Shown: positions 3,840-19,868 of the stretch, piece after piece
Layout of the letters: every line of letters starts with the position of its first letter
Position numbering within the stretch: the first letter of the stretch is position 1
DNA from: Hymenobacter swuensis DY53
GTDB taxonomy: Bacteria > Bacteroidota > Bacteroidia > Cytophagales > Hymenobacteraceae
Direction: 5' to 3'
Assembly (NCBI RefSeq): GCF_000576555.1
Contig: NZ_CP007145.1
Coordinates: 248,001 to 312,000, forward strand
Length of the DNA: 64,000 nucleotides
Notes under the pieces: model-generated
Told to the model about the DNA's origin: nothing
The model's database searches: none
The model's input: only the letters and a program-made list of their open reading frames with translations
Translations under genes and position numbers: made by a program

Positions 3840-3841
3840 AA

Positions 3842-3868
3842 AAAGGCCCGGAGAACGTCCGGGCCTTT
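3842..3868. terminator. Bidirectional rho-independent terminator
   Basis: Perfect 11-bp stem (AAAGGCCCGGA against TCCGGGCCTTT) with a 5-base loop and flanking A and T runs. It lies between the convergent exonuclease gene and TPM gene and can serve both strands. Confidence 0.85.
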
Positions 3869-3893
3869 AGAGTTGCTGCAGATAAGGGAGACT

Positions 3894-4724
3894 TTACCAG
3901 TCGCCGGAGGCACCGCCGCCGCCGGAGCTACCGCCCCCGAAACCGCCGAAGCCGCCCCCGCCACCGCCACCGCCAAATCCGCCACCGCCACCGCCGAATA
4001 CGCCCCGGCCGCCGCTGAAGTCGCCGAAGATAATGGGCGGAATCATGGCGCCGCCGAAGCCCCGGTTGCGCCGGCCGCCTGAGCTGCCGCCGCCCCGGTT
4101 TCGGAGCAGGATAATCAGTAGCAACGCCCCGATAACCACCCAGAACATCCAGCCCCCGCCGCTGTCGTCCGAGGAGGAGCGACGGGAGCGGGGCTGAGTA
4201 GCGGGGTCGGCTTTGTATTCGCCTTTGGCCAGTGCAATGAGCTGGTCGGTGGCGCGGTCAAGTCCTTCGTAATAGCGGTTTTCCTTGAAGGCCGGCGTAA
4301 GCGTACTGGTGATAATGCGCTTGGCCAAGGCGTCCGGAATGGCTCCTTCCAGGCCGTAGCCGGGCTGAATCCGGACTTTGCGTTCCTGCTTGGCAATAAG
4401 AATCAGGACGCCGTTGTTGTTGTTTTTCTGGCCGATACCCCACGTCTCGTAGAGCTGTTGGGCATAACCGGCAATTTCGTAGTCGCCGAGTGTGGGAATG
4501 GTCACCACCGCAATCTGCGACGAGGTGGAGTCGTTGTAAGCCACCAGCTTGCGCTCCAGCTGAGCCACTTCATCAGGGCGCAGCAGGCCCGCTAGGTCGT
4601 TGACCAGGCGGGGCGGGTTGGGGCGGGGCGGCACGTTCTGGGCCAGAGCCGCTAGTTGCAGCAGCAACAGACAGGCTGCCAGTAGCCAGCTCCGTCGGAG
4701 CGAAAAATGGAACAGGTGCTTCAT
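3894..4724 (-). CDS. TPM domain protein with glycine-rich tail (YgcG-like)
   Basis: 276 residues. It has a signal peptide ending LAALAQ, then a TPM domain at about 35-165 (LVNDLAGLL, SQIAVVTIPTL, WGIGQKNNNNGVLIL and RIQPGYGLEG are typical), a transmembrane helix near 192-208, and a C-terminal tail made almost entirely of Gly with a few Phe, Ser and Asp. That arrangement is common in YgcG-type membrane proteins, which are often encoded next to LemA; their biochemical role is poorly known. The start overlaps the end of the next upstream TPM gene by four bases (ATGA), so the two are translationally coupled. The Gly tail gives low-complexity GGC-rich DNA at 3897-4075 that produces false reading frames on the other strand. 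Confidence 0.92.
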   Translation of the reverse strand: MKHLFHFSLRRSWLLAACLLLLQLAALAQNVPPRPNPPRLVNDLAGLLRPDEVAQLERKLVAYNDSTSSQIAVVTIPTLGDYEIAGYAQQLYETWGIGQKNNNNGVLILIAKQERKVRIQPGYGLEGAIPDALAKRIITSTLTPAFKENRYYEGLDRATDQLIALAKGEYKADPATQPRSRRSSSDDSGGGWMFWVVIGALLLIILLRNRGGGSSGGRRNRGFGGAMIPPIIFGDFSGGRGVFGGGGGGFGGGGGGGGFGGFGGGSSGGGGASGDW

Positions 4725-5176
4725 GGGCGTTTGGTAGCCGAATCGCCAAAGGAGATGGAGTCGTCCAGCTCGTTCTGGTCGGTTTTGGCGTCGTAGGGAA
4801 AGTAGCGGCGCAGCTGCTCGCCTACCAGCCGGATGCCTTGCTCTAGGCCATCCACGTATTTCTCGGTCCGAAAATGCTGCAACACATTCTCCTTGGCAGT
4901 TTCCCAGAAGTCATCGGGTACGGCAGAATTAATGCCCGTGTCGCCGATAACGGCGAACTGCCGGCTCTGCCAGGCCAGGTAAAACAGCACGCCGTTGCGC
5001 TGAGCCGTCCGGTGCATGCCCAGCTCCGCAAACACCTGGGCGGCGCGGTCTAGAGGCTCGGGCGTAGGACAGGTGTCTTCTAGGTGTACGCGAATTTCGC
5101 CGGAAGTACGCAGCTCGGCCTGCCGGATGGCCGCTACCAATGCTGCTTCCTGCTCAGAAGAGAGGGGGTTAGTCAT
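4721..5176 (-). CDS. TPM domain protein, short paralogue
   Basis: 151 residues, consisting of one TPM domain (LRTSGEIRVHLEDTC, RNGVLFYLAWQSRQFAVIGDTGIN, DFWETAKENVLQHF) with no signal peptide or membrane helix visible. It is the middle gene of a lemA-TPM-TPM operon and overlaps the following TPM gene by four bases. One cytosolic-looking and one membrane-anchored TPM protein behind LemA is a recurring Bacteroidota arrangement. The function is unknown; a link with membrane protein quality or envelope stress is only suggested by context. Confidence 0.9.
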   Translation of the reverse strand: MTNPLSSEQEAALVAAIRQAELRTSGEIRVHLEDTCPTPEPLDRAAQVFAELGMHRTAQRNGVLFYLAWQSRQFAVIGDTGINSAVPDDFWETAKENVLQHFRTEKYVDGLEQGIRLVGEQLRRYFPYDAKTDQNELDDSISFGDSATKRP

Positions 5177-5185
5177 AGTCAGTTG

Positions 5186-5254
5186 TCAGTTAGCAGTTGT
5201 CGGTTGTCGGTTGGCAGAACTGTTCTGCCAACTGACAACCGACAACTGACAACT
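5186..5254. repeat. Palindromic intergenic repeat, AGTTGTC family
   Basis: Nearly perfect inverted repeat centred on 5221. The inner arms TTGGCAGAAC and GTTCTGCCAA match exactly, and they continue outward through tandem copies of CAGTTGTCGGTTGTC-type units with a few mismatches, for a total stem of about 33 bp. It sits inside the lemA operon. A related palindrome lies at 26111-26218. Confidence 0.8.
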
Positions 5255-5259
5255 CAAAA

Positions 5260-5838
5260 TTAAAACTGAACGGTTGGCGCTTTCTGGGCTGCTGCGTCGG
5301 CAGCGAAGTAGGGCTTCTCGGCGAAACCGAACATGCCCGCAAACAGGTTATTCGGGAAGCTCTTAATGTACCCGTTGTAGTCGTTGGTAAGCGTGTTGAG
5401 CTTGTTGCGCTCCACATTTATGCGGTTCTCAGTACCCTCAATCTGGGCCTGCAGCTCCTGGAAGTTGGCGTTGGCTTTCAACTCAGGGTAGTTTTCCGAT
5501 ACGGCCAGCAAACGACCCAGGCCGGCACTCACCTGCGACTGGGCTTCCTGGAACTGCTTCAGGTTTTCGGGGGTCAGGTTATCGGCGTTCAACTGCACGC
5601 TGGTAGCTTTGGCTCGAGCCTCGATTACCTCCGTCAGAGTTGATTTCTCAAAGTTGGCGGCGCCTTTTACGGTGTTTACCAGGTTCGGAATTAGGTCGGA
5701 GCGGCGCTGATAGGCACTCTGCACGTTACCCACCTGGGCTTTTACCGCTTGGTCTTTGGACACCATGGAGTTGTAGCCGCACGAGGATTGCGTGAGCAGC
5801 AATACCAGGCCAGCGAAATAGAGCAGAAAACGTTTCAT
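5260..5838 (-). CDS. lemA: LemA family lipoprotein
   Basis: 192 residues. The N-terminus MKRFLLYFAGLVLLL followed by TQSSCGYN is a lipoprotein signal peptide with lipidation expected at the Cys. The rest is the helical LemA domain (QVGNVQSAYQRRSDLIPNLVNTVKG, VIEARAKATS, LLAVSENYPELKANANF). LemA proteins are membrane-associated and of unknown biochemical role. It is the first gene of the operon with the two TPM genes; an 83-base gap holding a palindromic repeat separates it from the next. No promoter of the Bacteroidota type is clear upstream. Confidence 0.95.
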   Translation of the reverse strand: MKRFLLYFAGLVLLLTQSSCGYNSMVSKDQAVKAQVGNVQSAYQRRSDLIPNLVNTVKGAANFEKSTLTEVIEARAKATSVQLNADNLTPENLKQFQEAQSQVSAGLGRLLAVSENYPELKANANFQELQAQIEGTENRINVERNKLNTLTNDYNGYIKSFPNNLFAGMFGFAEKPYFAADAAAQKAPTVQF

Positions 5839-6074
5839 GGGGAGAAAGTAAGAAAGATGAAAAAGGGAGAGGAAAAGCGTTTTTCGAGGCCGGTAGCGGC
5901 CGGGCCGCTGCGGTTTTAACGGCCGGCGGCTACAAAACGGCCGGATGCCTGTTACTGCACGTAGCCGAACCGTTGCGCTGCAAAGTACGAATTCGCGCTC
6001 CGGTAGTTGTGCCGGGCCGTGCTCCGGTGCTATTGCGTATTTTGCGCGTCGGTGCTCCCCGATTTTTCTCTCGC

Positions 6075-7076
6075 ATGAAAGCAGTTATTCCCGTAGCCGG
6101 TATCGGCTCCCGTTTACGTCCGCACACGCACACCCAGCCCAAAACCCTGGTTCCCGTTGCCGGCAACACTATTCTGGGTCACATTATTGATCGGCTGGTA
6201 GAAGCCGGCGTGCAGGAGTTTGTGTTCATCATCGGCTACCTGGGCGAGAAAGTGGAGCAGTACGTGCGCAAGCAGTACCCCGAGCTGCGGAGCACATTTG
6301 TGGTACAGGAACCGCGCGAAGGCATTGCCCACGCCCTCTGGCTGGCCCGGGAGCAGTTCCGCCACGAAGCCGATGGTATCCTGATCATGCTCGGCGACAC
6401 GATTGTGGACGTGGACCTGCCCGCCATGATGCGCACGCCCGGCAACGTGCTGGCCGTGAAGGAAGTGAAAACACCCTCCATGTTCGGGTTGGTGGAAACT
6501 TCTACTAATGGCCGCGTGACAAAGGTGGTGGAGAAGCCGCGCATCCCGAAGTCGAACTACGCCATGGTGGGCCTCTACAAGATTGCCAACGCCGACTGGC
6601 TGGCCTCGGCCCTGGAGCGCATTGTGGAGCAGGACCAGCGCACCCACGGCGAGTTTCAGCTCACGGATGCGCTGATGCTCATGATTCAGGACGGGGCCGA
6701 AATGACCACGGCCTCGGTGGATAACTGGTTTGACTGCGGCCGTAAGGAAAGCCTGCTGGAAGCCAATGCCCGCCTGCTCAACCGCCCCGAGTTCCTGAAG
6801 CGCCGCGAGTACCCCGAGTTTCCCGATACCATCATCATCCCGCCCGTCAGCATCGGCAAGGACTGCCAGATTAGCGGGTCCATCATCGGCCCCAACGTAG
6901 CCATCGGCGACCGGACCATCGTCAAGAACACCATCCTGACCGACTCCATCATCGGCTCTTACTCGGAGCTGCGCTCCGCCGTGATGCACGACTGCATCGT
7001 GGGCTCCGACGCCCTGTTCCGTGGCACCCGCCACAGCCTCAACATCGGCGACAACACGGAAATCGACTACAGCTAG
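6075..7076 (+). CDS. Sugar-phosphate nucleotidyltransferase with beta-helix tail
   Basis: 333 residues. The NTP-transferase fold opens with MKAVIPVAGIGSRLRPHT, a variant of the GxGxRxxP nucleotide-binding loop, followed by TQPKTLVPVAG, GIAHALWLA, MLGDTIVD, VVEKP and the DNWFDCGRKESLLEAN region. From about residue 255 hexapeptide-like repeats appear (IIPPVSIG, ISGSIIGPNVAIGDRTIVKNT). It should activate a sugar 1-phosphate as an NDP-sugar for surface glycans. Its overall layout resembles archaeal-type glucose-1-phosphate thymidylyltransferases, but the base and sugar cannot be assigned. I chose the ATG at 6075 because the nucleotide loop must be N-terminal; the in-frame extension upstream has no homology-like features. 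Confidence 0.9.
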   Translation: MKAVIPVAGIGSRLRPHTHTQPKTLVPVAGNTILGHIIDRLVEAGVQEFVFIIGYLGEKVEQYVRKQYPELRSTFVVQEPREGIAHALWLAREQFRHEADGILIMLGDTIVDVDLPAMMRTPGNVLAVKEVKTPSMFGLVETSTNGRVTKVVEKPRIPKSNYAMVGLYKIANADWLASALERIVEQDQRTHGEFQLTDALMLMIQDGAEMTTASVDNWFDCGRKESLLEANARLLNRPEFLKRREYPEFPDTIIIPPVSIGKDCQISGSIIGPNVAIGDRTIVKNTILTDSIIGSYSELRSAVMHDCIVGSDALFRGTRHSLNIGDNTEIDYS

Positions 7077-7084
7077 GTGCCGTT

Positions 7085-7813
7085 ATGTTTGATTCCCTGA
7101 GAAAACTGTTTGGCTCTGCGGCCAACAAAGCCACCGACCAGCAACCGGCCTCGCTTATACAAGAGGAGACCATGACGGATGAGTTTCGCCAGCGAGTTAA
7201 AACGGAATCTGAGGCGAAAGTGCTGGCTCTTGATGGGCGAATCTGTGACTGGCTACCGCTTCTGGACGCGCCAGAAATACGCGGAATAGAAGGGATAAGG
7301 GCGCGCATGAGTGTGCTGAACGCACTTATCAATATTTCTTTTCAGGCGCCCGTAGCTGTCATTGAAAAGTGGCTTACGCAGGAGAACTTGCTGGCCTATC
7401 TGTCGCCGGATGAGGCTGCTATATTGACAAAGACCAATAAGCAGCTGACGGAGCAGGAGCTAGCGAACCTGCGCTGGAATCTGGAAAGCCTGTGGGCCAT
7501 GATGTGGGCCACGCAAATGGTATCTGAACTGGACCCTGTAAAGTGGTGCGGCGACAATATGGCGTCGTTGTTACCTAACCTGGAACAGGGGCAAACCAAC
7601 GAGAAACTAACAGGACTGCAGAACCTAAGATCAGCGGCTGAGCTATACCGAATGCTGGACTTTTACTATCGTCTGCATTGGTATTGCGTGGATGAGCGGC
7701 TACACGGTCGGGCCGCCAATGTATCAGAATCTTTGGTGTATGAGCGGCGGAAAGCACTGGAGTGGATTTACAACAATCAGTATGAGTGGGATGATGTAGA
7801 AATGAGCACTTAG
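7085..7813 (+). CDS. DUF4272 domain protein
   Basis: 242 residues, soluble and mostly helical. The C-terminal pattern ERRKALEWIYN followed by WDDVEMST, with the central LRWNLESLWAMMWATQMVSEL, is typical of DUF4272, a family without known function. The first 30 residues are low-complexity and polar. An internal ATG at 7172 (MTDEFRQ) is an alternative start. It begins eight bases after the nucleotidyltransferase stop, so the two are probably co-transcribed. Its base composition is visibly more AT-rich than that neighbour, which hints at a different origin. Confidence 0.75.
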   Translation: MFDSLRKLFGSAANKATDQQPASLIQEETMTDEFRQRVKTESEAKVLALDGRICDWLPLLDAPEIRGIEGIRARMSVLNALINISFQAPVAVIEKWLTQENLLAYLSPDEAAILTKTNKQLTEQELANLRWNLESLWAMMWATQMVSELDPVKWCGDNMASLLPNLEQGQTNEKLTGLQNLRSAAELYRMLDFYYRLHWYCVDERLHGRAANVSESLVYERRKALEWIYNNQYEWDDVEMST

Positions 7814-7905
7814 CGGCTTTTCTATCAAAACAGGACTATACCAGATTCGGGACAACTTCACCGTTCATGTATCCGCTGAGGGCAGATTGTCGTTACTTTA
7901 GCCCG

Positions 7906-9288
7906 ATGCGCTACCCGACCTCCTTCTCCCGCCTGCTGCCCGCCCTGGGCCTGACGCTGCTGTTGCTGCCCGGCTGCTACTCCCGCTCCGATATGAAAGG
8001 AGAGGAAGCAGCCGCCACCACCGATAAACCCAAGGCCGAAATGCCCGCCGCCGTGCGGCCCACGGAAGCTCCCGGCGTGGAGGCACCGGAGGAAGCGTCG
8101 GATGTGGTGAGCAGTGCCGTCACCCAGCCGCTGCAGGCCGTGAACGTGTTTCTGGAAGTATCCGGCTCCATGGAAGGCTTCATGCCTAAAACCGGAGCCA
8201 GCGGCGAGAATACCAAGTTTCAGCAGCACGTGGCGCAGTTGCTTTCGGAAATCAACCGGACGCCAGCCGCGCGGAAAAAGGCGTTTTTCCGCATCAAGGA
8301 GAAGCCCTACGCCGATACCTACCAGGGCATTTCGGGAACAGTGCGCAGCGGCATTCAGCAGCCGGCCAAAAGCACCGAGCTGCCCGCCGTACTCGATACG
8401 CTGATGACGCGCTACTACCGGCCCGGCACCGTGAGCGTGCTGATTTCGGACTTCATCTACTCGCCCAAGAACGCCGGGGCCATTCCATACATCAAAACGG
8501 ACATCACCGACGCCCTGCAGCGCAACGGCGCGCAGCCGGACCTGGCCGTGTCGGTGTACGGCTACACCTCCAATTTCCGGGGCACGTATTACCCGGCTCT
8601 GAAGGCAGCCGGCAAGAAAACGGCCTGCTGCGACACCGAAATTCCCTACTACATCTGGGTGCTGGGGCCGGCGGCGGCCGTGCGGCAGTTTGATGCCGCT
8701 TTGCTGGAGCAGCAGCCTGCCAAGCAGGCCCACTTCGGCGTTACGTATCCGCGGCCGGCGTATTCGCTGCTGAGCAAGTTCCAGAACAAAGGCAGCTGGT
8801 ACTACGGCGACGCCGGGGCCAGCAAGCGCAGCGCCGATACCTACCGCGTGGTGGCCGTATCGGAAGCCTCGGCCCAGCAGCCGGTGGAATTTGTGGTGGG
8901 CCTGAACCTGGCCCAGCTGCCCGGTCAGTACCGCGACGTGGCCTACCTCAAACAAAACCTGACCCTGCAGGGCGTGGATACTGACGCCAAGCTGCTCGAC
9001 GTGCAGGCCGCCTCGGCCCAGACCAAGGCCAGCAGCGGCCCGGAAAGCAAGTTTACGCACTTCGCCAAAATCCGCCTCACGAAAGCGCCCAAAGCGGCCC
9101 GCCCGTTGGTGTTGCGCCTCCAAGACCAGCGCCCAGCCTGGGTAGCTCAGTGGACCACCCGCAACGACGGCACGCCCGCGCCCAAGACCTTCGCCCTCAG
9201 CTCCCTGCTCGACGGCTTGGAGCCGCAGGCAGCCAGGGAGAAGCGCCCGGTGTTCGAGCTGCCCCTGACGGTGCAGCCCGCCGAGTAG
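7906..9288 (+). CDS. Lipoprotein with von Willebrand A-like domain, first gene of the MotAB/tubulin-like cluster
   Basis: 460 residues. From the ATG at 7906 the leader RLLPALGLTLLLLPGC has a lipobox with Cys at about 24. A Glu/Pro/Ala-rich linker follows to about residue 80. A Rossmann-like strand, AVNVFLEVSGSMEGF, then aligns with the metal-binding start of von Willebrand A domains, except that the first Asp of DxSxS is Glu. VSVLISDFIYS would be the later acidic loop. The C-terminal 200 residues look like beta-rich extracytoplasmic domains (VEFVVGLNLAQLPG, PLVLRLQDQRPAW). It probably sits in a membrane facing the periplasm. It heads a run of nine plus-strand genes. TACTTTAG just upstream resembles a -7 box, but no -33 partner is seen. 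Confidence 0.75.
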   Translation: MRYPTSFSRLLPALGLTLLLLPGCYSRSDMKGEEAAATTDKPKAEMPAAVRPTEAPGVEAPEEASDVVSSAVTQPLQAVNVFLEVSGSMEGFMPKTGASGENTKFQQHVAQLLSEINRTPAARKKAFFRIKEKPYADTYQGISGTVRSGIQQPAKSTELPAVLDTLMTRYYRPGTVSVLISDFIYSPKNAGAIPYIKTDITDALQRNGAQPDLAVSVYGYTSNFRGTYYPALKAAGKKTACCDTEIPYYIWVLGPAAAVRQFDAALLEQQPAKQAHFGVTYPRPAYSLLSKFQNKGSWYYGDAGASKRSADTYRVVAVSEASAQQPVEFVVGLNLAQLPGQYRDVAYLKQNLTLQGVDTDAKLLDVQAASAQTKASSGPESKFTHFAKIRLTKAPKAARPLVLRLQDQRPAWVAQWTTRNDGTPAPKTFALSSLLDGLEPQAAREKRPVFELPLTVQPAE

Positions 9289-9298
9289 GAGCACAAGC

Positions 9299-9472
9299 AG
9301 TAGCGCGAAGTCTTTGCTTCGCGTATAGCCGCGTACAAACGCACACTGCGCGCCGCATTACTTGGCACGATAGTCGTTCAACACCGCGCGAAGCAAAAGC
9401 TTCGTGCCACTGACAATTTCGCCCCTCGTCGTATCGTTCCATCACCCGCGAAGGGAAACTTCGCGTTACTTA
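9299..9472. repeat. Three small GCGAAG/CTTCGC hairpins
   Basis: The space between the lipoprotein gene and the next one holds three consecutive short hairpins, each with CGCGAAG or GCGAAG on the left and CTTCGCG or CTTCG on the right. The first begins CAGTAGCGCGAA, the same start as the palindrome at 31264-31295, so this is a dispersed repeat family and not a simple terminator. Confidence 0.7.
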
Positions 9473-9477
9473 CTTTC

Positions 9478-9870
9478 ATGAAAGCACTCTTCCGCTTCCT
9501 CTACGAGCTCATCGGCGCCCCGCAACCACCCGCCGACACCCCGGTGTACCGCGATGTTATCTTCCCCAACCTGGGGCTGCTGAACCTGGGCGTTTCGCTG
9601 GGGCTGGTGGTGGTGTTCTACCTGCTCATCAACCGGGCCATGGGTGTGGCTACCTTCAATAAAGGCCGGCATTGGGCCATCTTTCTGGGGCTGAACGCAC
9701 TAATTGCCTTCCTCGTCACCATCTGGCAGACCAACGCCCAGCAGGTCACCGACCACAGCTACATCTACTGGCTGGCTACCTGGAACGCCATTCTGGGTAT
9801 GTTCTGGTTTTTCCTGTTCTCCGTATTGCTTAAGCGCGGCTCGACCAACGCCAGCACGACTCCGTTCTAA
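9478..9870 (+). CDS. Small three-helix membrane protein
   Basis: 130 residues with three predicted membrane helices: about 37-53 (LGVSLGLVVVFYLLINR), 64-80 (WAIFLGLNALIAFLVTI) and 96-117 (LATWNAILGMFWFFLFSVL). No family recognised. It lies second in the cluster, between the vWA-like lipoprotein and the tubulin-like gene, so it may be an inner-membrane component of the same complex; that is inference from position and shared strand only. Confidence 0.7.
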   Translation: MKALFRFLYELIGAPQPPADTPVYRDVIFPNLGLLNLGVSLGLVVVFYLLINRAMGVATFNKGRHWAIFLGLNALIAFLVTIWQTNAQQVTDHSYIYWLATWNAILGMFWFFLFSVLLKRGSTNASTTPF

Positions 9871-9876
9871 TCTTAG

Positions 9877-9985
9877 AAGTCAGATATGAGAACTAAGAAC
9901 TGAGAGCCTTGTGGACGCCAGTATAAATGGCTGAAAGGTTCTAAGTTCTTACCTCTAAGCTCTTGGTTCTCATTTCTAAGCTCTT
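9877..9985. repeat. Imperfect palindromic repeat, GAACTAAGAAC family
   Basis: The left part contains GAGAACTAAGAACTGAGAG and the right part contains several complementary copies (GGTTCTAAGTTCTTA, CTCTAAGCTCTTGGTTCTC). The arms pair with mismatches around a loop near 9920. It fills the gap before the tubulin-like gene. Confidence 0.65.
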
Positions 9986-9996
9986 CCTTCCAACTC

Positions 9997-11445
9997 ATGG
10001 CTAAACTCTTTTTATTCGGTATTGGCGGCACGGGTTCCCGCGTCATTCGTTCGCTCACGATGCTGCTGGCCGCGGGCGTAGAGCTGCCCAACTGCGACCG
10101 GGTGGTGCCCATCATCATCGACCCCGACGCGCACAATGGCGACATGAACCGCACGGTGCAGCTGCTGCAGAGCTACCAGCAGATTTACAAGCGCCTCGGC
10201 CCTCGCGAAGAAGGCTTCTTCAAGACCGATATCAGCACCTTGAGCGGCATTTCGCAGGACGTGAACGGCTCGGTGAAGGACACCTTCATCTTCGACTTCG
10301 GCGGCATCAACCAGAGCTTCCGGCAGTACCTGAGCTACGACGGCCTGAGCGTGGACTCGAAGGGGCTGGTGGACTTGCTGTTCACCCAGGACAATTTGGA
10401 AAGCCCGCTGACCATCGGCTTCCGCGGCTCGCCGAACGTGGGCAGCATTGTGCTGAACAAGCTGGTGGAAAGCCCGGAAATGCGGTTTTTCGCCGATAAC
10501 TTCCAGGACGGCGACCGGGTATTTTTCGTGTCGAGTATCTTCGGCGGCACGGGCGCGGCGGGCTTCCCGCTGATGCTCAAGAACCTGAAGGACTCGAACA
10601 CCCGCCTCAGCAACGCCCGCTACCTGCGCGACGCCCCCACCGGCGCCGTGACGGTGATGCCCTACTTCGCTTTGCAAAGCGAAGACAACGCCGTTATCGA
10701 TTCCAACAACTTCCTGACCAAGACCAAGGCGGCGCTCAGCTACTACGAGCACAACCTGCAGGGCCTCGACGCGCTGTACTACCTCGCCGACACGCCCGAC
10801 ACGCCCTACGAAAACCAGCCCGGCGGCACCCAACAGAAGAACAAGGCCCACGTGATTGAGCTGCTGGCGGCCCTGAGCATCGTGGATTTCATGCGCTACT
10901 CGCCCGCCGAGCTGCGCACCGGCGGCCCGCACTTCCACGAGTACGGCCTGCAGACCGATGCGCCGGAAATCCAGTTCAGCCACCTGCCCGATGAGTCGCG
11001 CGAAATCATGGCCAAGCAGCTCACGCAGTTCCTGTACTTCACGCGCTACCACAAGCAGCACCTGCCCACCGATAAAGCGCCCTACGCCGACAACCTGAAG
11101 CTGGACTATGCCATGCGCAACGAACCCATCTTCCGGGAGCTGAACACCTTCCTGCACAGCCAGGACATGGGCGTGGATCAGTGGCTGCAGGAGCTGGCTC
11201 AGAACCGCCGCGCCTTCCGCCCCTTCGACTTGCAGACCGACGATTTCAACGCCATGATCCTGGGCAAGCCGGTGGAAAAGAAGTGGAACGACTTCTTCAA
11301 CAAAGGCCTCAGTCACAACTACCTGCTCGACAACCTCAACAAAACCGAGAAGTCCATCCAGGAACCCGACAACTTCCGCAAGCTGCTGGAGCTGTTCTAT
11401 GATGTGACCGATAAGGCGTTTGAGGAGAAGGTGAAGGTGGTGTAG
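9997..11445 (+). CDS. Tubulin-like protein
   Basis: 482 residues. The N-terminus MAKLFLFGIGGTGSRVIRSL is a Rossmann start like that of the tubulin/FtsZ superfamily, and FGGTGAAGFPL at 182-192 matches the tubulin signature GGGTG(S/T)G in position and kind. Between them, residues 36-48 (VVPIIIDPDAHNG) look like a second Rossmann strand. The C-terminal half is helical and unrelated to FtsZ. Bacterial tubulin-like proteins of this sort are known as a diverse family of uncertain function. Nucleotide binding is expected; polymerisation cannot be judged. It is followed by the actin/Hsp70-like gene, so two cytoskeletal-type folds are adjacent. Confidence 0.8.
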   Translation: MAKLFLFGIGGTGSRVIRSLTMLLAAGVELPNCDRVVPIIIDPDAHNGDMNRTVQLLQSYQQIYKRLGPREEGFFKTDISTLSGISQDVNGSVKDTFIFDFGGINQSFRQYLSYDGLSVDSKGLVDLLFTQDNLESPLTIGFRGSPNVGSIVLNKLVESPEMRFFADNFQDGDRVFFVSSIFGGTGAAGFPLMLKNLKDSNTRLSNARYLRDAPTGAVTVMPYFALQSEDNAVIDSNNFLTKTKAALSYYEHNLQGLDALYYLADTPDTPYENQPGGTQQKNKAHVIELLAALSIVDFMRYSPAELRTGGPHFHEYGLQTDAPEIQFSHLPDESREIMAKQLTQFLYFTRYHKQHLPTDKAPYADNLKLDYAMRNEPIFRELNTFLHSQDMGVDQWLQELAQNRRAFRPFDLQTDDFNAMILGKPVEKKWNDFFNKGLSHNYLLDNLNKTEKSIQEPDNFRKLLELFYDVTDKAFEEKVKVV

Positions 11446-11454
11446 AACGAAAAC

Positions 11455-11683
11455 TCCCCTCCTTGAAAAGGAGGGGACGCCGTGCCGCAGGCGCGGCTGG
11501 GGTGGTTTGCCCGCGTGCTGATGTTGTTTACCTGAACTACTCAAGCCGCACCGTTCAACGAATCAACCACCCCTAGCCCCTCCTTTCCAAGGAGGGGAAC
11601 TAGCTTTCTAGTTGTAGTTTCTAGCAGTAAAAAATCACCCCGAGCAACCTTCGTCTGGCTCCCCCTCCCCACCGGGGAGGGGG
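11455..11683. repeat. G/C-run palindromic repeats (CCCCTCC family)
   Basis: Contains three hairpins: CTCCCCTCCTT/AAGGAGGGG near 11455-11476, CCCCTCCTT/AAGGAGGGG at 11577-11598 and CCCCCTCCCC/GGGGAGGGGG near 11660-11683. GGGGTGGTT after the first pairs with AACCACCCC before the second, so the first two form one larger inverted unit. No open reading frame of note. Confidence 0.7.
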
Positions 11684-11703
11684 CCGGGGGGTGGGGTCCC
11701 GAT

Positions 11704-14700
11704 ATGGCCAAAGTCCTTCGCTTACACAACAACGGCTCCCAGCAGGTACAGGGCTGGCAGAAAACTGCCCCCGTCACCAGCACCGAAATCAACACCGTGA
11801 CCGACCCGGCGGGCGGCAAGTCGCGCAACCTGGCCGTGAGCATCCCGACGCCATTTGCGCGGATGCACCTGTTTGAAACGGCTTTCGACTTCCTGGCCCG
11901 CGAAGGGCAGCGCAACCCCGGCTCAGTGTACCACGAGCTGACGACGCACTTCTGGGACTTGCTGGAGCTGCTATACAACTACCACCTCTACACCCAGGCC
12001 GGCCGCAAAATCACGCTGCGCCGCTGGAACTCGGAGACCGAAATCCGCCGAATGCGGCAGGACGAGGGCACGCGCCTACTGGGCGAAACGCTGCAGTTAT
12101 ACATGCAGGACGAGCGGTTCCGCGACTTCACCGACATGTACCTGGTGTACTATGAGTCGCCGGAGCTGGCGGGCGGCACGCGCCTGCTGGGCGGCACCTC
12201 GCCGCTGACCATCCTGTTCACTGGCCCCGCCGTGGAACCGCTGGACCTAGAGCGACCCCAGGCCCGTGGCCACTATTTCGACAAGCAGACGGTGCTGCTC
12301 GAAGACCGCGACCCGCAGTTTCGGGAGTTCGTGTATGAGTTGTTCCTGGCGTATCCGCAGCTGCAGCGCCGCGAGTTTGCCGGCAGCGTGTACGCGGGCT
12401 TCGACCGCTCGAAAATCAACCAGCTCCAGATGCAAGGTGACCGGAGCGCGCAGCAGTTTGCCACTCGTTACCCGGCCTTGGCCGACGTGCAGGGCAACTT
12501 GGTGAGCGTGAAAGGCGTGCCGCTGCCCGGCCGCGCCGACCAGTCGGCCGTGACCAGCTCCGACCTGTTCATCCAGCCCACCCGCGAATCGACGACGGGC
12601 CGGCCGCGCCCGCTGGTGCTGCGCCCGAACCTGACGATGCCAGGGGCCAACTACCTCAACGGCCAGCCCTGGGACGACCGCACGCCGGTTCCGTATTACG
12701 ATGAGGTGGCGCTGGAAAGCCGCGTGCTGCCCGGCAAAGGCTTCAAATACCCCTACCTCACGGTAGGCGACTTGCTGGAAGACTCCCTGGTGGAGCTGCC
12801 CTACGAACTGAACACCCAGCGTTTCCACACCGGCAAAGTCACGTTTCAGTATGGTGCCGATGGTCATGGCCGGGCGCGTTTCCCGTATCTGCTGCCGCTG
12901 AAACAGGCGTTTTTCGAGTATTTCACCGAGAACGAGCTGGCCGAGCTGCTTACTTTCACCATCGACCTGAGCCACGTGCGCGTGCAGCTGCGGGTGCCGG
13001 TGCAGGCGGGCCGCTTTATCACGTTTGAGCGCAGCTACTACACCAATCCGCAGAACCCGAAGGATGCCCAGGGCCGCGAGATTCTGGAGAAGGGCCGCAT
13101 TGTGAAGGCCGCCGTGGGCGTGGGCGTGTTCCCGTTCTACAAGGTGCGCTACCAGCCCGAGTTCAACGACCTCTATAAGGTGATGCTGGTAGACGCCGAC
13201 AACGCGCCCACCATGCTCAACCGCCGCTACGACCTCACGTTTTTCGTGAACGGGGAGCGAATCACGGAGCAGGGTGCCGCCCGCCGCGCCACTCGCTATG
13301 AGCGCACCCAGAAAAGCATGGCCACCGCCGGCAGCACCTACTACGAAGTCACCGGCACGCACTTTGACCTCGCCGAGCTGACCTGCCCGCCCGCCACAAT
13401 TGGCGCGGAGCCGGCCCGGGGCCTGTTCGTGCCGCGCTGGCGCGAGCTGGACCGCGGCACCCGCCGCTTCACCTTCGCGGTGGACTTCGGCACCACCAAC
13501 ACCCACATTGCCTACGCCGATTCGCCGAGTGCCCACCCGCGTCCGCTGACCATTGGCGAGTCGGATGTGCAGGTGGAGTGGCTGCACGCGCCGGTAGCTG
13601 ATCAGGGGCTTTCGGCGGCGCAGCGCTACCGCACGGGCGCCGGCCAGATCTGGGACAACATTGCCACGCTGCAAAACCGGGAGTTTGTGCCCTCGTTCCT
13701 GGGCGAAGGTGGCTCGGTATATGAGTTTCCGATTCGGACGGCCGTGTGCGAAACCACGTCGTTTGCTAACGAGCCCGCCAAGGTGCTCAGCAACATCAAC
13801 ATTGGTTTCAGCATCAACACCGAAAACACGGCCGAGCTGCCCCAGAACCGCTTCATCACTAACCTGAAATGGTCGGCGGAGCTGGACCCGCAGGGCGTGT
13901 CGCGCATCGAGGCCTTCTTCAAAGAAATTCTGCTTCTGCTGCGCCACAAGGCGGCTTTGCACGGTGGTATTTTGGAAGATACCCGCGTGGTGTGGTTTGC
14001 GCCGCTGAGCTTCGATGGCTTCCTGCGCAACCAGTTCCAGCAGGTCTGGGACGAGTCGTTCCAGCAGGTGTTCAAGGCCAAGCGCCCCACCATCTGCCTC
14101 ACCGAATCGGTGGCGCCGTACTACTACCTCACCGCCACCAACCAGGTAGTGCCCAACCGCGACGAAAACGTGGTGAACATCGACATCGGCGGCGGTACCA
14201 CCGACTTGCTGCTGTTCGCCGACCAAAAACCGGCCTACAGCACCTCGTTCCGCTTCGCCGGCGACGACCTGTGGGGCGACGGCTACGCCCGCGTGCAGGG
14301 CGCGCCCAAGCAAAACGGCCTCCTGCGCCTCGGCGTGGGCCACGTGGAAAGCCTGCCCGATTCCGAGCAGAACCAGGAGTACAAAGGCTACCTGCGCGCC
14401 GCCCTCAGCAACACCGATTTCGGCTCCGCTGACGTGACCAGCCTGCTGTTCAAGTACGATGATGCGCTACGCTTCACCCAGGCTTTGGGCCTCGGGAAGG
14501 GCCGGCAGCTGCGGGTGCTGTTCTATCTGCACTATACCAGCATCATCTACCACACGGCCCAGCTCACCAAGCACCTCGGCCTGAAAACGCCGCGCTACCT
14601 CTGCTTCTCCGGCAAAGGCAGCCTCTACCTGCGCCTGCTGGCCGGCGGCAGCTCGCTGGTGGCCATCGAGAAGATTACGAAGGCCATCTTCCAAGCCGTA

Positions 14701-15168
14701 ACGGGTGTGGAGCCGCCGCACAACTTCCGCGTCATCCTGGCCGACAACCCCAAGGAAGCCACCACCAACGGCGGCGTGCTGTTCGAGGAGAAAACCACCA
14801 CCGACTACGACAACATCAAGCCCGTGAAGTACAGCGGCGCCGTAGAAGGCACCGAGCTCAACCAGCAGCGCCTGAAACTGAATCAGGTGGATGCCGAACT
14901 GAAAAACACGGTGCTCGACAACGTGCGCAACTACCTCACCCTGGTGCTGGAAGGCGACGACGTAGCGCCCTACCTACGCGAAGTAGGCGTGGACGTGGAC
15001 CGTCAGCGCGTGAAAGACATCCTGCTCCGCGAAATCGAGGACAGCCTGAGCCTGGGCCTGCATCAGTTCCAGCGCCAGCTTTCCTCCGACGAAACCCTGC
15101 CAGAAACCTTGTTCTTCCTGCCGCTGAAACAGGCGCTGTACAACCTGAGCCGCGAGCTGCAGGCGTAG
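11704..15168 (+). CDS. Giant protein with actin/Hsp70-like ATPase domain
   Basis: 1154 residues, no signal peptide. Residues 1 to about 585 match no family I recognise and are mixed alpha/beta. From about 590 the protein is an actin/Hsp70-superfamily ATPase: FAVDFGTTNTHIAY (phosphate 1 loop, 594-601) and NIDIGGGTTDLLLF (phosphate 2 loop, 827-834), with LCFSGKGSLYLRLLAG at about 961-976 as a candidate adenosine-loop region. Length and layout recall the SrfB-type proteins, but I cannot confirm that by eye. It follows the tubulin-like gene and precedes the channel genes, so it may be a cytoplasmic energy-using or scaffold part. The next gene begins four bases after its stop. Confidence 0.8.
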   Translation: MAKVLRLHNNGSQQVQGWQKTAPVTSTEINTVTDPAGGKSRNLAVSIPTPFARMHLFETAFDFLAREGQRNPGSVYHELTTHFWDLLELLYNYHLYTQAGRKITLRRWNSETEIRRMRQDEGTRLLGETLQLYMQDERFRDFTDMYLVYYESPELAGGTRLLGGTSPLTILFTGPAVEPLDLERPQARGHYFDKQTVLLEDRDPQFREFVYELFLAYPQLQRREFAGSVYAGFDRSKINQLQMQGDRSAQQFATRYPALADVQGNLVSVKGVPLPGRADQSAVTSSDLFIQPTRESTTGRPRPLVLRPNLTMPGANYLNGQPWDDRTPVPYYDEVALESRVLPGKGFKYPYLTVGDLLEDSLVELPYELNTQRFHTGKVTFQYGADGHGRARFPYLLPLKQAFFEYFTENELAELLTFTIDLSHVRVQLRVPVQAGRFITFERSYYTNPQNPKDAQGREILEKGRIVKAAVGVGVFPFYKVRYQPEFNDLYKVMLVDADNAPTMLNRRYDLTFFVNGERITEQGAARRATRYERTQKSMATAGSTYYEVTGTHFDLAELTCPPATIGAEPARGLFVPRWRELDRGTRRFTFAVDFGTTNTHIAYADSPSAHPRPLTIGESDVQVEWLHAPVADQGLSAAQRYRTGAGQIWDNIATLQNREFVPSFLGEGGSVYEFPIRTAVCETTSFANEPAKVLSNINIGFSINTENTAELPQNRFITNLKWSAELDPQGVSRIEAFFKEILLLLRHKAALHGGILEDTRVVWFAPLSFDGFLRNQFQQVWDESFQQVFKAKRPTICLTESVAPYYYLTATNQVVPNRDENVVNIDIGGGTTDLLLFADQKPAYSTSFRFAGDDLWGDGYARVQGAPKQNGLLRLGVGHVESLPDSEQNQEYKGYLRAALSNTDFGSADVTSLLFKYDDALRFTQALGLGKGRQLRVLFYLHYTSIIYHTAQLTKHLGLKTPRYLCFSGKGSLYLRLLAGGSSLVAIEKITKAIFQAVTGVEPPHNFRVILADNPKEATTNGGVLFEEKTTTDYDNIKPVKYSGAVEGTELNQQRLKLNQVDAELKNTVLDNVRNYLTLVLEGDDVAPYLREVGVDVDRQRVKDILLREIEDSLSLGLHQFQRQLSSDETLPETLFFLPLKQALYNLSRELQA

Positions 15169-15172
15169 CTAA

Positions 15173-15571
15173 ATGGGTAAAAGATCAGTAAAGCAACTAG
15201 TATTCTTTACAGCCTTCGGGGTATTTGTGTACTTCCTGCACTCCAGCGGAAAAGAAGGTGATATAAAAGTGTATGCAAAGAATATCAGGAGCGAATACAG
15301 GGGAGTAATAATTGAAAAGTACCGTCGAAAAACAGACTACATCAAAATTCGTACGGAGGATTCAATTATCGATATTCCTTTGCTAAGCCCTACGCTCGAA
15401 GAGAATGCGCAAGTAGGAGATTCAATAAAAAAGGTTGCCTTAAAGAATGAATGTGTACTCACGAAAAATGGGCAGGTTATGCACATGGAGTATGTCTTCA
15501 TTTCAGAATCAATAAGGAATGATAGTCGTTGGCCCAAAGACTTGTCACATGTAGTTGCCTCTGACGAATAG
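15173..15571 (+). CDS. AT-rich small gene, N-terminally anchored hypothetical protein
   Basis: 132 residues, unknown family. One N-terminal hydrophobic segment (QLVFFTAFGVFVYFL, about 8-22) suggests a membrane anchor or uncleaved leader; the rest is polar and strand-rich (YRGVIIEKYRRKTDYIKIR). Its DNA is visibly more AT-rich than the flanking GC-rich genes and uses codons such as ATA, AAA and TTA that they avoid. It is spaced only four bases after the giant ATPase-like gene, so it is transcribed with the cluster, yet it looks like a later insertion. Confidence 0.65.
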   Translation: MGKRSVKQLVFFTAFGVFVYFLHSSGKEGDIKVYAKNIRSEYRGVIIEKYRRKTDYIKIRTEDSIIDIPLLSPTLEENAQVGDSIKKVALKNECVLTKNGQVMHMEYVFISESIRNDSRWPKDLSHVVASDE

Positions 15572-15621
15572 TACATTCATTGATTCGAATAAAAAAAGCC
15601 CGCTTCCTACCCCAACACCCT

Positions 15622-17088
15622 ATGACCCTTTCCCGCCGCGTTGCTTCTTTGCTTACCGGCCTGCTGCTGCTTGCGGCGGGCGTCCATGCCCAAACGCCCC
15701 TCGGCCAGCCCACGCTGGAGGAGCGCAAAGTGCAGATCTGGTGCGCTACGGCCAAGTTCGTGTACGAAGACACGGGCCACCCCGAGCTGAAAAGCCAGTT
15801 GAAATGCGGCGGCCCGTTGAAGGACTTTGCCGGCAGCATCAAGGCCGATGAGCAGCGTGTGTACTCGGCGCTGTACCAGCCGCTGGAAGTGCAGGGCGTG
15901 ATGTACAAGGGCCTGGGCTCGGATAACTCCCGCCTGCAGACGCTGGTGCGCGAAATCATCAACCGGCTGCGCACCTCCCCGGCCCGCAAGGGCAATGCCG
16001 CCCGGCTGGCCGGCGTGACGAAGCTAGAAACGGCCCTGAAAAACTACCTCGACCAGGGCACGCCCATCGGCGACCTGTCCGCGGCCGAAGCCGCCGCCGA
16101 AACCGAAACCGTCGATACCACTGCCACCACCGACGAGGCGACGGCTGCCGCCCCCGGCGACGCTGGTCTGGACGAGGCGGGTGTGGCTACTCCTACACCA
16201 GCCGCCGCATCCGGGGCCGGGGAGAGCCTAATGAACAAGTTTTTCGGCCCTCTGGGGCTGATTTTGGCCCTGCTAAGCTTGGTGCTGTACGCGCTGATGC
16301 GCAAGAGCCTCGGGGAGTTTCAGAAGGAGCTGAGCGCCCGCATCGACAAACGCCGCGACGAAATTCTGGCTTTGCAAACAACGCCCGGCAGCAGCGGCAA
16401 GCCCGCCGAGCTGTTCTCGCCGGCCCAGCTGCGCGAGCTGGAGCAGCTGATCCAGCAGCGCGTGGAGCAGGAGCTGCAGAAGCGCCAAGCCGCGCCGAAA
16501 ACCAACGTAGCTGCCGCGGCTCCTGCTGCTCCGGCTCCGCAACCCGTAGTGCCTGCGCCGGCTCCGCAATCTGCGGCACCTACTCCGGCCCCGGTAGCAC
16601 CACCCGTGCCGGTGGCAGCGCCCACGCCGGCTCCGGTGCCGCCATCGGCTGCTCCGGCCGCCCCGGTGAGCAGCCCCGCCGCCCCGCAGGAGGAGTTCGA
16701 CAACCTGGTACCGCCCGTGCAGCTGCCAACCGCGCCCGCCGCTGCCCCGGCCGTATCCGCCGCCGACCTGCCCCGCACGCGCTACGTGAAGGTGCCCGTG
16801 AATGGGGTGTTCAACGAGTACGACTTCTCCGACGAGCCCCAGCACGACAGCATCTACGAGATTCACCTGGATCCGCAGTGGCCCGAGCTGGCCACGTTCA
16901 GCGTAACGCAGAACCCCGCCGTGCACGCCTATGCCATCCAGAGCGCGCAATATTCCCTGCGCGAAGCTTGCAAGTACCAGCAGCCCGCCGGCCCGGTCAC
17001 GCGCATCGTGACGGAGGAAGAAGGCGTGCTGCGCAAAGCCGCCGGCGCCTGGCAGATCGAGCAGAAAGCTGCCATCCGGTTTGAGTAG
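15622..17088 (+). CDS. Bitopic coiled-coil protein with Pro/Ala linker
   Basis: 488 residues from the ATG at 15622. A signal peptide (SLLTGLLLLAAGVHAQ) is followed by about 180 residues with a helical domain, one transmembrane helix near 207-227 (LGLILALLSLVLYALM), a positively charged helical stretch (RKSLGEFQKELSARIDKRRDE), a Pro/Ala-rich linker at about 290-375, and a C-terminal domain beginning RTRYVKVPVNG. Positive charges after the helix suggest the C-terminus is cytoplasmic, so the protein would join periplasm and cytoplasm. No family recognised. It directly precedes the MotA-like gene and is a plausible connector of the complex. Confidence 0.7.
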   Translation: MTLSRRVASLLTGLLLLAAGVHAQTPLGQPTLEERKVQIWCATAKFVYEDTGHPELKSQLKCGGPLKDFAGSIKADEQRVYSALYQPLEVQGVMYKGLGSDNSRLQTLVREIINRLRTSPARKGNAARLAGVTKLETALKNYLDQGTPIGDLSAAEAAAETETVDTTATTDEATAAAPGDAGLDEAGVATPTPAAASGAGESLMNKFFGPLGLILALLSLVLYALMRKSLGEFQKELSARIDKRRDEILALQTTPGSSGKPAELFSPAQLRELEQLIQQRVEQELQKRQAAPKTNVAAAAPAAPAPQPVVPAPAPQSAAPTPAPVAPPVPVAAPTPAPVPPSAAPAAPVSSPAAPQEEFDNLVPPVQLPTAPAAAPAVSAADLPRTRYVKVPVNGVFNEYDFSDEPQHDSIYEIHLDPQWPELATFSVTQNPAVHAYAIQSAQYSLREACKYQQPAGPVTRIVTEEEGVLRKAAGAWQIEQKAAIRFE

Positions 17089-17096
17089 ACACCGTC

Positions 17097-17195
17097 TGTC
17101 ATCCTGAGCTTGCGAAGGACCTTTCTACGTTTGAACGAACCTCGTAATAGTGGCTTGTTCTAACGTGATAAGGTCCTTCCTTCGTCAGGATGACA
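17097..17195. repeat. Palindromic repeat, TGTCATCCTGA family
   Basis: Left arm TGTCATCCTGAGC..GAAGGACCTT (17097-17123) is complementary to the right arm AAGGTCCTTCC..TCAGGATGACA (17170-17195), with about 46 bases between. Similar cores occur at 19892 and 21119 (GTCATGCTGAG, GTCATTCCGAG). Confidence 0.75.
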
Positions 17196-17223
17196 GCGTG
17201 GGAATGCCGTACTTTACTGTTCT

Positions 17224-18684
17224 ATGCTTGAAATCATCCTCGAAGTTCTGGTGGTGACCGTGGTGGTGGGGCTGCAGATTCGCACGTTTCTGCGGACGCG
17301 GGCCAATGCCCGGCGGCTGGCCGTGCTGTATCCACCCAAGGAAAGCCTGCGCGTGGAGCACCGCATTGTGCTGCCCGACGGCCGCGACCTGCCCGATTAC
17401 GCCGCCGACGCCCCGCCCGAATCTTTCGCCTCCAACCTCGTCAAGGCCGAAAACGCCTCGCCCGAGTTTCAGGAAATTCTGCTTGATACCAACGACTACC
17501 TGCGCCACAACAAAGGCGCAGCGGCCGATTTTGGGATTCTGAAGGACATTTCGGAGCGCCAGAGCGAGGTGCTGGACAATGCAGTGCAGGCCGAGGTGGC
17601 CACTCCCCTGTATCTGGGGCTGCTGGGCACGTTTCTGGGCGTGATTCTGGGGTTGGTGGGTATTGCTCGCAACGGGGTGTCGGATGAAAACGCGCTGACG
17701 CCCTTCCTCACCGGCGTACTCATTGCCATGACGGGCTCCTTCGTGGGGCTGCTGCTCACGCTGCTCGGCAACGGCGTGCTGCGCCAGGCCCGCCACCAGC
17801 TCGACCGGCTCCAGAACCAGTACTACACCTTCCTGCAGGCCCGCCTGCTGCCGGTGCTGCACGCCGATATGGCTAGCTCGCTCACCAACCTTAAGTCGGT
17901 ACTCGATGCCTTCAACCAGCAGTTTGTGGGCCAGGTGGAGCTGTTCAACCCGCTGATGGAAAAGGTAACGCAGAACATCCGGGTGCAGAGCGACTTCCTG
18001 GAGCGCCTCGATACCATCGGCTACGACAAGATGGCGGCGGCCAACATCCTAGTGTTTGAGAAGGTGCGCGAGTCGGCGGAAATGTTCAGCGCCTTTACCG
18101 GCTACCAGCAGCGCCTCAACGAGATGCTGCAGAACGGCTACCATTCGGCAGAGGCGGTGAACAGCATCCTAGACCGGCTGCGGGGCTTCGAGAAGGGCAT
18201 CAACGACCTGGGCCAGTACATCGGCGGTAACAACAACTCGGTGCAGCTGATGCTAGATTTCTTCCAGAAGCACCAGGTGGAGCTGCGCAACCTCAAGGAC
18301 CGCGCCGAGCAGCACATCGACCAAGCCGGCGTGGGCCTCGCCGACGTGATGAACAAGCGCCTGGCCTACAACGAGCGGCAGGCCCAGCTGGCCTACGAGA
18401 AGTGGCAGCAGTATTTCGAGCAGCTCAACGCCGACAACGTCTTCGAGAAGCTGCTGAAACAGCTGGAGCCTTTCCAGAACCTCAACACCCAGCAAGCCGA
18501 CCTCAGCCGCGACGTCACGGCCACCCAGCGCGAGCTGCTGCGCAAAGTGGAAGTCGATTCCCAGATTCAGGCCAAGTTGCTGCTGGAGCTGTCGAACCTG
18601 AACACCGTGCTGGTGAAAGCCACGTCCAAGAACCGTTTCCAGCGGTTTATGGATAAGCTGTTTGGCGGTGTGAAGCCGCAGTAA
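17224..18684 (+). CDS. MotA/TolQ/ExbB-like proton channel protein with long helical tail
   Basis: 486 residues. Three membrane helices are seen: 3-19, about 128-147 (TPLYLGLLGTFLGVILGLVG) and 160-182 (PFLTGVLIAMTGSFVGLLLTLLG). The second and third reproduce the signature LGLLGT and the A-x-x-T/G-x-x-G pattern of the MotA/TolQ/ExbB family, which form pentameric ion channels with MotB/TolR/ExbD. Residues 190-480 are a long, largely helical cytoplasmic tail rich in Gln, Leu and Asn with coiled-coil character, as in ZorA. The MotB-like partner is two genes downstream. Expected role: conversion of ion flow into rotation or force on the tail and associated proteins. Confidence 0.82.
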   Translation: MLEIILEVLVVTVVVGLQIRTFLRTRANARRLAVLYPPKESLRVEHRIVLPDGRDLPDYAADAPPESFASNLVKAENASPEFQEILLDTNDYLRHNKGAAADFGILKDISERQSEVLDNAVQAEVATPLYLGLLGTFLGVILGLVGIARNGVSDENALTPFLTGVLIAMTGSFVGLLLTLLGNGVLRQARHQLDRLQNQYYTFLQARLLPVLHADMASSLTNLKSVLDAFNQQFVGQVELFNPLMEKVTQNIRVQSDFLERLDTIGYDKMAAANILVFEKVRESAEMFSAFTGYQQRLNEMLQNGYHSAEAVNSILDRLRGFEKGINDLGQYIGGNNNSVQLMLDFFQKHQVELRNLKDRAEQHIDQAGVGLADVMNKRLAYNERQAQLAYEKWQQYFEQLNADNVFEKLLKQLEPFQNLNTQQADLSRDVTATQRELLRKVEVDSQIQAKLLLELSNLNTVLVKATSKNRFQRFMDKLFGGVKPQ

Positions 18685-18695
18685 GGGTAGTAATT

Positions 18696-19175
18696 ATGAC
18701 GGTATTTTTCCTGCGTATATGGCTAAATTTGAGCTTTTTAATCACTGTATATCCTTCGCAGAGTGAGGTAATAAGGATTGAAATTCCTAGTCATTACAGT
18801 AAGCTCTACAATGAGGAGTTGATTAAGCGTCTCGTAATTCGTCCGGGCCTTGATAAGACAAAATACATTACTGCTGCCGATACGGTTTTAAACGCGCTGG
18901 AAGTATGCGGTGGTAATGGCGTTTACTATTTCGGCCAAGGCCCGACGGATCACACTGCTGGTAAGTATCAAGTTGTAACCAGAGTAGGGAATGAGTTGCA
19001 ATATGTACGTAATCGTACAAGTCAATTGAGCCACAAGCGACTAGTTGAGGCATATTATGCGGGCACGCTGTATAGTGATAAGTGTTTCACATATAAGCGT
19101 AATGAGTCACTGATGAGTCAAGTTATCAAGCTAGTCGATCTTAATCGGAAAAAGGTTTCCAGCGACAAATTCTAA
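18696..19175 (+). CDS. AT-rich small gene, secreted hypothetical protein
   Basis: 159 residues, unknown family. The N-terminus FFLRIWLNLSFLITVYPSQS looks like a signal peptide, leaving about 138 polar residues containing two Cys (CGGNG, DKCFTY) that could form a disulfide. As with 15173-15571, the DNA is visibly AT-richer than its neighbours and its codons differ. It separates the MotA-like and MotB-like genes, which in other systems are adjacent, so it appears inserted into a functional pair. It starts 11 bases after one and ends 15 bases before the other. Confidence 0.65.
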   Translation: MTVFFLRIWLNLSFLITVYPSQSEVIRIEIPSHYSKLYNEELIKRLVIRPGLDKTKYITAADTVLNALEVCGGNGVYYFGQGPTDHTAGKYQVVTRVGNELQYVRNRTSQLSHKRLVEAYYAGTLYSDKCFTYKRNESLMSQVIKLVDLNRKKVSSDKF

Positions 19176-19190
19176 TTTCGACTCCTTTTC

Positions 19191-19868
19191 ATGAACAACG
19201 CCACCTCCAACAAACGCCAAAGCAACGACTTCTTCTGGCCCAGCTATGTGGACCTGATGACGTCCTTGTTCGTGGTGATGCTGGTGCTGTTTGTGTACAG
19301 CTTCAAGCTGTTCAAGGACCGGGAAGGGGAGCTGAAGCAGGCCAACGGTGAGCTGAAAGCCAAGGCCGCCGAGCTGGAGCAGATTACTAAAATCCGCCGC
19401 TCTTTGCAGCAGCTCGAGGGCCGCTATTTCCGCTACGACCCCACCAACGAGCGCCACGAGCTGCTGGTACCCGTGCAGTTCAAAGCCGGCCGCGATGAAA
19501 TCCAGGACAGCTACAAGCCCGCCCTGCTGCAAGCCGGCCGAACCCTGCGCACAGTACTTAAGAGCATCAAAACCGACCAGCCCGTACGCTACCTAGTGAT
19601 TGTGGAAGGCATGGCCGCGCGCTACCCCCAGGGCGACCCGCGCAACGCTCGCGAGGAGCAAACCACCTACCAGCTCAGCTACCGCCGCGCCCTCAACCTG
19701 CTCAACCTCTGGAAACAGAACGGCCTCAATTTCGGCCAGGACCGCGGCATCGAGCTCATCATCGGGGGCAGCGGCTTCTACGGCACCGGCCGCTACCAGG
19801 GCCGCCGCGAAGGTGACAACAAACGCTTCCTGATCCAGGTGATTCCGAAGGTAGGGCGGATGCAGTAG
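19191..19868 (+). CDS. MotB/OmpA-like stator partner
   Basis: 225 residues. After a short polar N-terminus, one membrane helix spans about 16-37 (PSYVDLMTSLFVVMLVLFVY); its Asp21, at the start of the helix, aligns with the proton-carrying Asp of MotB/TolR. A coiled coil follows (DREGELKQANGELKAKAAELEQI), then an OmpA-like domain from about residue 95: VQFKAGRDEI, YLVIVEGMAA, LSYRRALNLLNLWKQNGL. It should anchor in the peptidoglycan and form a channel with the MotA-like protein. It is the last gene of the cluster; a terminator hairpin follows. Confidence 0.82.
   Translation: MNNATSNKRQSNDFFWPSYVDLMTSLFVVMLVLFVYSFKLFKDREGELKQANGELKAKAAELEQITKIRRSLQQLEGRYFRYDPTNERHELLVPVQFKAGRDEIQDSYKPALLQAGRTLRTVLKSIKTDQPVRYLVIVEGMAARYPQGDPRNAREEQTTYQLSYRRALNLLNLWKQNGLNFGQDRGIELIIGGSGFYGTGRYQGRREGDNKRFLIQVIPKVGRMQ

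Follow-up and report, generated by a model that had tools for sequence, protein, structure and literature searches.

The stretch of DNA analysed here, referred to as the window, comprises 64,000 nucleotides of Hymenobacter swuensis DY53 (contig NZ_CP007145.1, positions 248,001 to 312,000), whose genome (G000) totals 5.25 Mb in 4 contigs. Between positions 7906 and 19868 the window holds nine open reading frames (ORFs), all on the plus strand and labelled A to I, seven of which (A, B, C, D, F, G and I) are a real conserved unit. The presence in this cluster of a MotA/MotB-like pair alongside tubulin-like and actin/Hsp70-like genes had been observed in a preliminary description of the sequence, and is confirmed here. 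The genes are given below, where counts refer to 101 compared loci, namely the window, 20 further loci and 80 loci with a named source; these 80 are the best 80 of 436 confirmed, and genomes are partly counted twice.

Gene A, 7906..9288, plus strand: lipoprotein with a probable vWA domain and a beta-sandwich; homologue in 100 of 101 loci
Gene B, 9478..9870, plus strand: membrane protein with three helices; 99 of 101 loci
Gene C, 9997..11445, plus strand: tubulin/FtsZ superfamily, divergent relative of Tubulin_2 (PF13809)
Gene D, 11704..15168, plus strand: 1154 aa, predicted actin/Hsp70 ATPase fold at residues 586-1037; 97 of 101 loci
Gene E, 15173..15571, plus strand: 132 aa, AT-rich (GC 0.396), intercalated; in the window only among the 101 loci
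Gene F, 15580..17088, plus strand: signal peptide (by eye), transmembrane (TM) segment at 221-239, Ala/Pro-rich linker; 97 of 101 loci
Gene G, 17224..18684, plus strand: MotA/TolQ/ExbB-like channel, TM segments at 1-19, 129-147 and 164-182; 96 of 101 loci
Gene H, 18696..19175, plus strand: 159 aa, AT-rich (GC 0.415), intercalated; 6 of 101 loci including the window
Gene I, 19191..19868, plus strand: MotB/ZorB-like, one TM segment with Asp21, putative OmpA-like C-terminal domain; 94 of 101 loci

The ORF of gene A opens at 7867, and its signal peptide is obtained, as judged by eye, from the ATG at 7906. F is a bitopic protein whose C-terminal domain, following the linker, is conserved, and G continues for ~300 residues beyond its last TM segment as a predicted cytoplasmic tail.

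Conservation and joint evolution of seven genes

Among these closest relatives, the order A B C D F G I is exact in 92 of the 101 loci, and two others (L046 and L047) hold all seven genes plus one extra piece. Seven loci are incomplete: for L073, L077, L124 and L049 the contig is short or ends there, an explanation that does not apply to L043, L048 and L050. The preliminary description had taken all nine genes as one set, of which the seven-gene order stands; E and H are rejected as parts of the unit, given their rarity and low GC. Both are small, AT-rich and set into the operon at 4-15 bp from their neighbours, each being present as a single copy in its own genome.

In all 36 of the other same-genus genomes C is matched, at one copy each, although this copy is read as two fragments in two of the 36. 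A wider search that included these genomes found it in 40 of 59 genomes and 4 of 22 genera, its own included; H. duratus carries a C that matches the window's at 100% identity. Neighbourhoods were read for 17 of the 36, and the full seven genes are present in 16 of them. The frame of C is interrupted, leaving two pieces, in G003, G005 (L047) and G445 (L151), through either error or decay. In the case of G035 (82% complete, 6% contaminated), a partial C at 37% identity and weak D matches were found, with no G match. D-like proteins of 1157 and 1195 aa occur in G037 (L210) and G035 (L211), on contigs other than those of C, and no other profiled gene adjoins them.

In a phylum-wide sample, C is matched in 13 of 395 genomes, strongly (E<1e-100) in 10; four of these ten belong to the genus of the window, and they are not ten independent events. 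D matches at E<1e-50 occur in nine of the ten strong-C genomes and in none other of the 395. In 299 other genomes D has weaker matches only; the listed ones are short and for the most part fall around residues 814-870, as expected for genes of the FtsA/MreB type. G (E<1e-8) and I (E<1e-20) are found in the same six of the ten strong-C genomes and nowhere else in the sample, with weaker I matches in three further genomes, including G365 at a place other than its L155 set (see below). A MotA/MotB-like pair that never co-occurred with the tubulin- or actin-like genes had been named in the preliminary description as grounds for refuting it; the neighbourhood comparison found that the pair and the nucleoside triphosphatase (NTPase) genes co-occur and co-vary.

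The seven genes have also diverged together. For pairwise identities across 58 loci, C correlates with D at r 0.99, B at 0.95, A at 0.94, G at 0.93, F at 0.89 and I at 0.79, whereas against the neighbouring gene nucT (17 loci) the correlation is 0.40 for C, 0.79 for F and 0.44-0.56 for the other genes. The high value for F may derive from L046, where the best F match can be an orphan copy. This locus (G022, 813-14352) carries a divergent cluster in inverted orientation beside nucT, with nucT 89% identical to that of the window and C just 45%; the orphan F lies beside the cluster, and its best piece shares 56% identity with the window's F across 271 residues. Such an arrangement suggests that the whole cassette was exchanged at one and the same site.

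Two further features of the locus are a DUF4272 gene (3e-37) at window positions 7085-7813, between nucT and A, found in 7 of the 101 loci, and palindromic repeats in the C-D gap (11446-11703). The C-D gap of L031 (9450-10236) also contains palindromic repeats; in both loci they resemble repetitive extragenic palindromic (REP) elements, of a different kind in each genome.

Protein identities and the putative ion path

The channel pair retains residues of the putative ion path. Asp21 of I is invariant across all 93 homologues without a gap at that position and aligns with Asp24 of ZorB in structure 8vvn, a residue reported as crucial for defence in the available part of PMC11890865. Within G, Thr136 is kept in 95 of 96 homologues, and Ser172 and Thr179 in 96 of 96 each. 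At the peptidoglycan site, the LS..R motif and a later Arg are kept; the H/T/D triplet is not. Of the PADLOC models, ZorB comes nearest to I and ZorA nearest to G; Pfam OmpA matches I at 0.15 only, and the NCBIfam scores lie below the curated cut-offs (14.7 of 500 bits for ZorA_4 and 25.1 of 400 bits for ZorB1). Two other genes of this genome match MotA_ExbB more strongly (103.7 and 82.5 bits), so that G probably serves the cell neither as TolQ nor as ExbB.

The preliminary description had also stated that the helicases and nucleases of Zorya are absent, and this is borne out: no Zorya helicase, nuclease or other effector model was matched among the 19 window proteins scanned with PADLOC. The other PADLOC matches are a weak restriction-enzyme match of H (0.016) and a match of a neighbouring 192-aa gene to coiled-coil LmuB (5.4e-5), which we judge spurious.

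C appears from its sequence to be a divergent relative of the FtsZl1/Tubulin_2 family. The window's C scores 14.7 bits against PF13809, for which the Pfam cut-off is 27 bits, and its relatives P0089 (28.5 bits), L050 (28.1 bits) and L196 (40.8 bits) exceed that cut-off. With 482 aa, C is devoid of the coiled-coil and helical C-terminal domain of the FtsZl1 family. Sequence profiles of the PDB gave just 0.36 as the best match for C, to a Tubulin/FtsZ chain, and nothing telling for A or G; no vWA family was found in a Pfam scan of 42 A homologues. In D, both the fold and the phosphate motifs of the actin/Hsp70 (ASKHA) superfamily were found.

The Walker A (P-loop) pattern is absent from all nine proteins, and Pfam found no kinase, nuclease or toxin family in the gene set. 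Pfam contains GAP1 models; no GAP1 family is among the matches at E<=1, a threshold that a diverged GAP1 may escape. A phage origin is rejected, with zero matches of C among 50,697 phage records.

Split sets, swapped sets and known systems

Beyond the closest relatives, the set is divided in one genome: G040 carries A-B-C at 3.36 Mb and D-F-G at 3.59-3.60 Mb, ~0.23 Mb apart, with no I seen next to G. At 12 distant C loci, D adjoins in nine and A in nine, although two of the nine D neighbours match at just E 3e-7 and 4e-8 and one is cut by a contig end. A MotA/MotB pair is present at only three of the 12 (L150, L151 and L155). L151 has A, B, C, G and I, with no D at the locus or in the genome, a bin with 13% contamination. 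In the case of L155, the genes on one strand read MotB, A, a three-TM protein where B would stand, C, D, a 491-aa protein where F would stand, and MotA. The MotB is ZorB3-like (1.8e-27; Pfam OmpA 1.2e-16). Because the proteins at the B and F places have no profile match, and the MotA has no G-profile match at E<=1, the L155 motor may represent a separate recruitment.

Where the motor is missing, other proteins stand at the operon end: in L152 a YkuD L,D-transpeptidase (9.4e-22) and a weakly matched SH3 domain, in L147 an aspartyl protease plus a WG repeat, and in L148 a WG repeat alone. The proteins that replace the motor are thus partly cell-wall proteins. A, C and D are together in Prevotella sp. 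oral taxon 299 (L195) and on two cyanobacterial plasmids (L196 and L197), with no convincing G or I in any of the three; a B profile match is found in L195 only, L196 and L197 having a TM protein at the same place. The cyanobacterial D has 46 relatives, and any source name given to them reads hypothetical or unknown protein. One such relative, P0154 (1418 aa), has protein-kinase Pfam domains, reminiscent of the kinases found in FtsZl1 operons. Four changes of the motor label are needed on the C tree, a count qualified by long branches, which leave distant placements unsure, and by row L073 being labelled by default. Since the cyanobacterial plasmids carry A, C and D without a motor, and some relatives swap other proteins in, the motor seems to be a replaceable output for an older core, to which it is not obligatory.

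The preliminary description knew of no system with this exact set. Among the open-licence papers listed in literature searches, no title or abstract start describes a motor with tubulin-like and actin-like proteins. The closest described relative is the FtsZl1/Tubulin_2 (PF13809) family, whose operons with vWA and OmpA partners were published in 2010 by Makarova and Koonin (PMC2875224). There, going by the part of the paper available, a tubulin-superfamily protein is encoded together with membrane proteins and a vWA protein, and several genomes add an OmpA-family protein to the operon. The differences are that the main text of PMC2875224 names no actin/Hsp70-like partner and no MotA, and that the P-loop GTPase or kinase partner, frequent there by that account but not universal, was not found here. 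In addition, C has ~480 aa and no coiled-coil extension, whereas five canonical Bacteroidota members have 982-1208 aa (one of the five is cut by a contig end, and two of the five loci are short). No ORF of at least 100 aa at these five loci, FtsZl1 included, matches the A-D, F, G or I profiles at E<=1, and canonical FtsZl1 is set apart from C on the tree with support 100/99, on long branches. Canonical FtsZl1 operons are accordingly rejected as the same system.

Zorya shares a MotA-like channel with a cytoplasmic tail, a MotB-like partner and the aligned Asp of the ion path (PMC11890865, available part). Here, in contrast, no effector gene lies nearby, the H/T/D triplet is not retained, the motor is linked to C and D, and the set is genus-wide; membership of Zorya is rejected on the missing effector and scores far under the curated cut-offs. 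The DO-GTPase/GAP1-N2 conflict systems resemble the present set in having tubulin or HSP70-family genes, vWA proteins and a membrane-proximal location, but in the accessible portion of PMC7159879 tubulin and HSP70 are separate themes, whereas here they are joined, with no GAP1 Pfam match and no P-loop motif. TolQR, ExbBD, MotAB and GldLM share the architecture of an inner-membrane ion motor (compare PMC12505986, available part).

Possible roles of the proposed machine

We favour, at a likelihood a little short of even, a trans-envelope machine in which an old core of A, B, C, D and F has been joined by a ZorAB-type motor, G and I, serving as its output or sensor. What was directly observed behind this reading is the composition of the set, its synteny and co-occurrence, the joint evolution of its genes and the conservation of motifs. 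Five copies of G and two of I would form a MotA5B2-like channel, and ions passing Asp21 of I would turn or strain G, whose cytoplasmic tail could relay the motion or strain to C and D. These in turn may assemble or change shape with GTP or ATP, while A, B and F would connect the machine with the outer membrane and the periplasm. Envelope upkeep or strain-sensing is its most likely job, rather than phage killing, a preference that arises because C is present in every genus member examined and because one swapped output is a cell-wall enzyme.

The main rival to an envelope role is a phage defence or conflict system, whereby G and I would detect damage to the envelope during infection, as has been proposed for Zorya, and C and D would act as effectors that assemble and block the invader. 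The nearness of I to ZorB and of G to ZorA in PADLOC is suggestive of such a role, as are the ZorB3-like MotB of L155, the tubulin and HSP70 genes of proposed conflict systems (PMC7159879, in the portion accessible), the C relatives on cyanobacterial plasmids, the patchiness of C outside the family (13 of 395 genomes), the weak restriction-enzyme match of H and the cassette exchange beside nucT. Because of this exchange and the likeness to ZorAB, we hold defence to be possible, if rather doubtful; the occurrence of C in all 36 other genus members examined speaks against it, together with the missing Zorya effector models, a set without nuclease or toxin family or P-loop motif, and the lack of a C match in the phage records.

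Less probable again is plain membrane remodelling of the FtsZl1 type, where C, with D, would shape the inner membrane and G and I would just anchor or energise it. The distant kinship of C to Tubulin_2, with three relatives above the Pfam cut-off, fits this idea, as do the vWA and OmpA partners described, in the part available, in PMC2875224, but C has neither the coiled-coil nor the C-terminal helical domain of FtsZl1, and the five Bacteroidota FtsZl1 loci yield no profile match and fall elsewhere on the long-branched tree. Finally, the gaps of 126-258 bp between several window genes would suit unrelated neighbours brought together by chance, a very remote prospect against the order kept in 92 of 101 loci, the co-occurrence across 395 genomes and the split set retained in G040.

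In a more far-reaching form of the trans-envelope machine, which we hold to be possible but less likely than not, a tubulin-like GTPase and an actin-like ATPase would form a mixed assembly across the envelope that an ion-driven rotary motor directly drives or gates. The core would then be a general chassis, in Bacteroidota and Cyanobacteria, with its output (motor, cell-wall enzyme or protease) swapped between lineages.

In bacteria, tubulin-like proteins and actin-like proteins usually occur in systems apart from each other, while flagella, Ton/Tol, gliding, secretion and defence are driven by MotA/TolQ-class ion motors. A conserved operon with all three would offer a testable case in which motion or strain from an ion motor could be passed to cytoskeletal NTPases. 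With C in all 36 other members of the genus examined, and with named strains in existence, deletion would be a direct test, and the gene set could help to clarify what the FtsZl1-like proteins, predicted in 2010, do in the cell.
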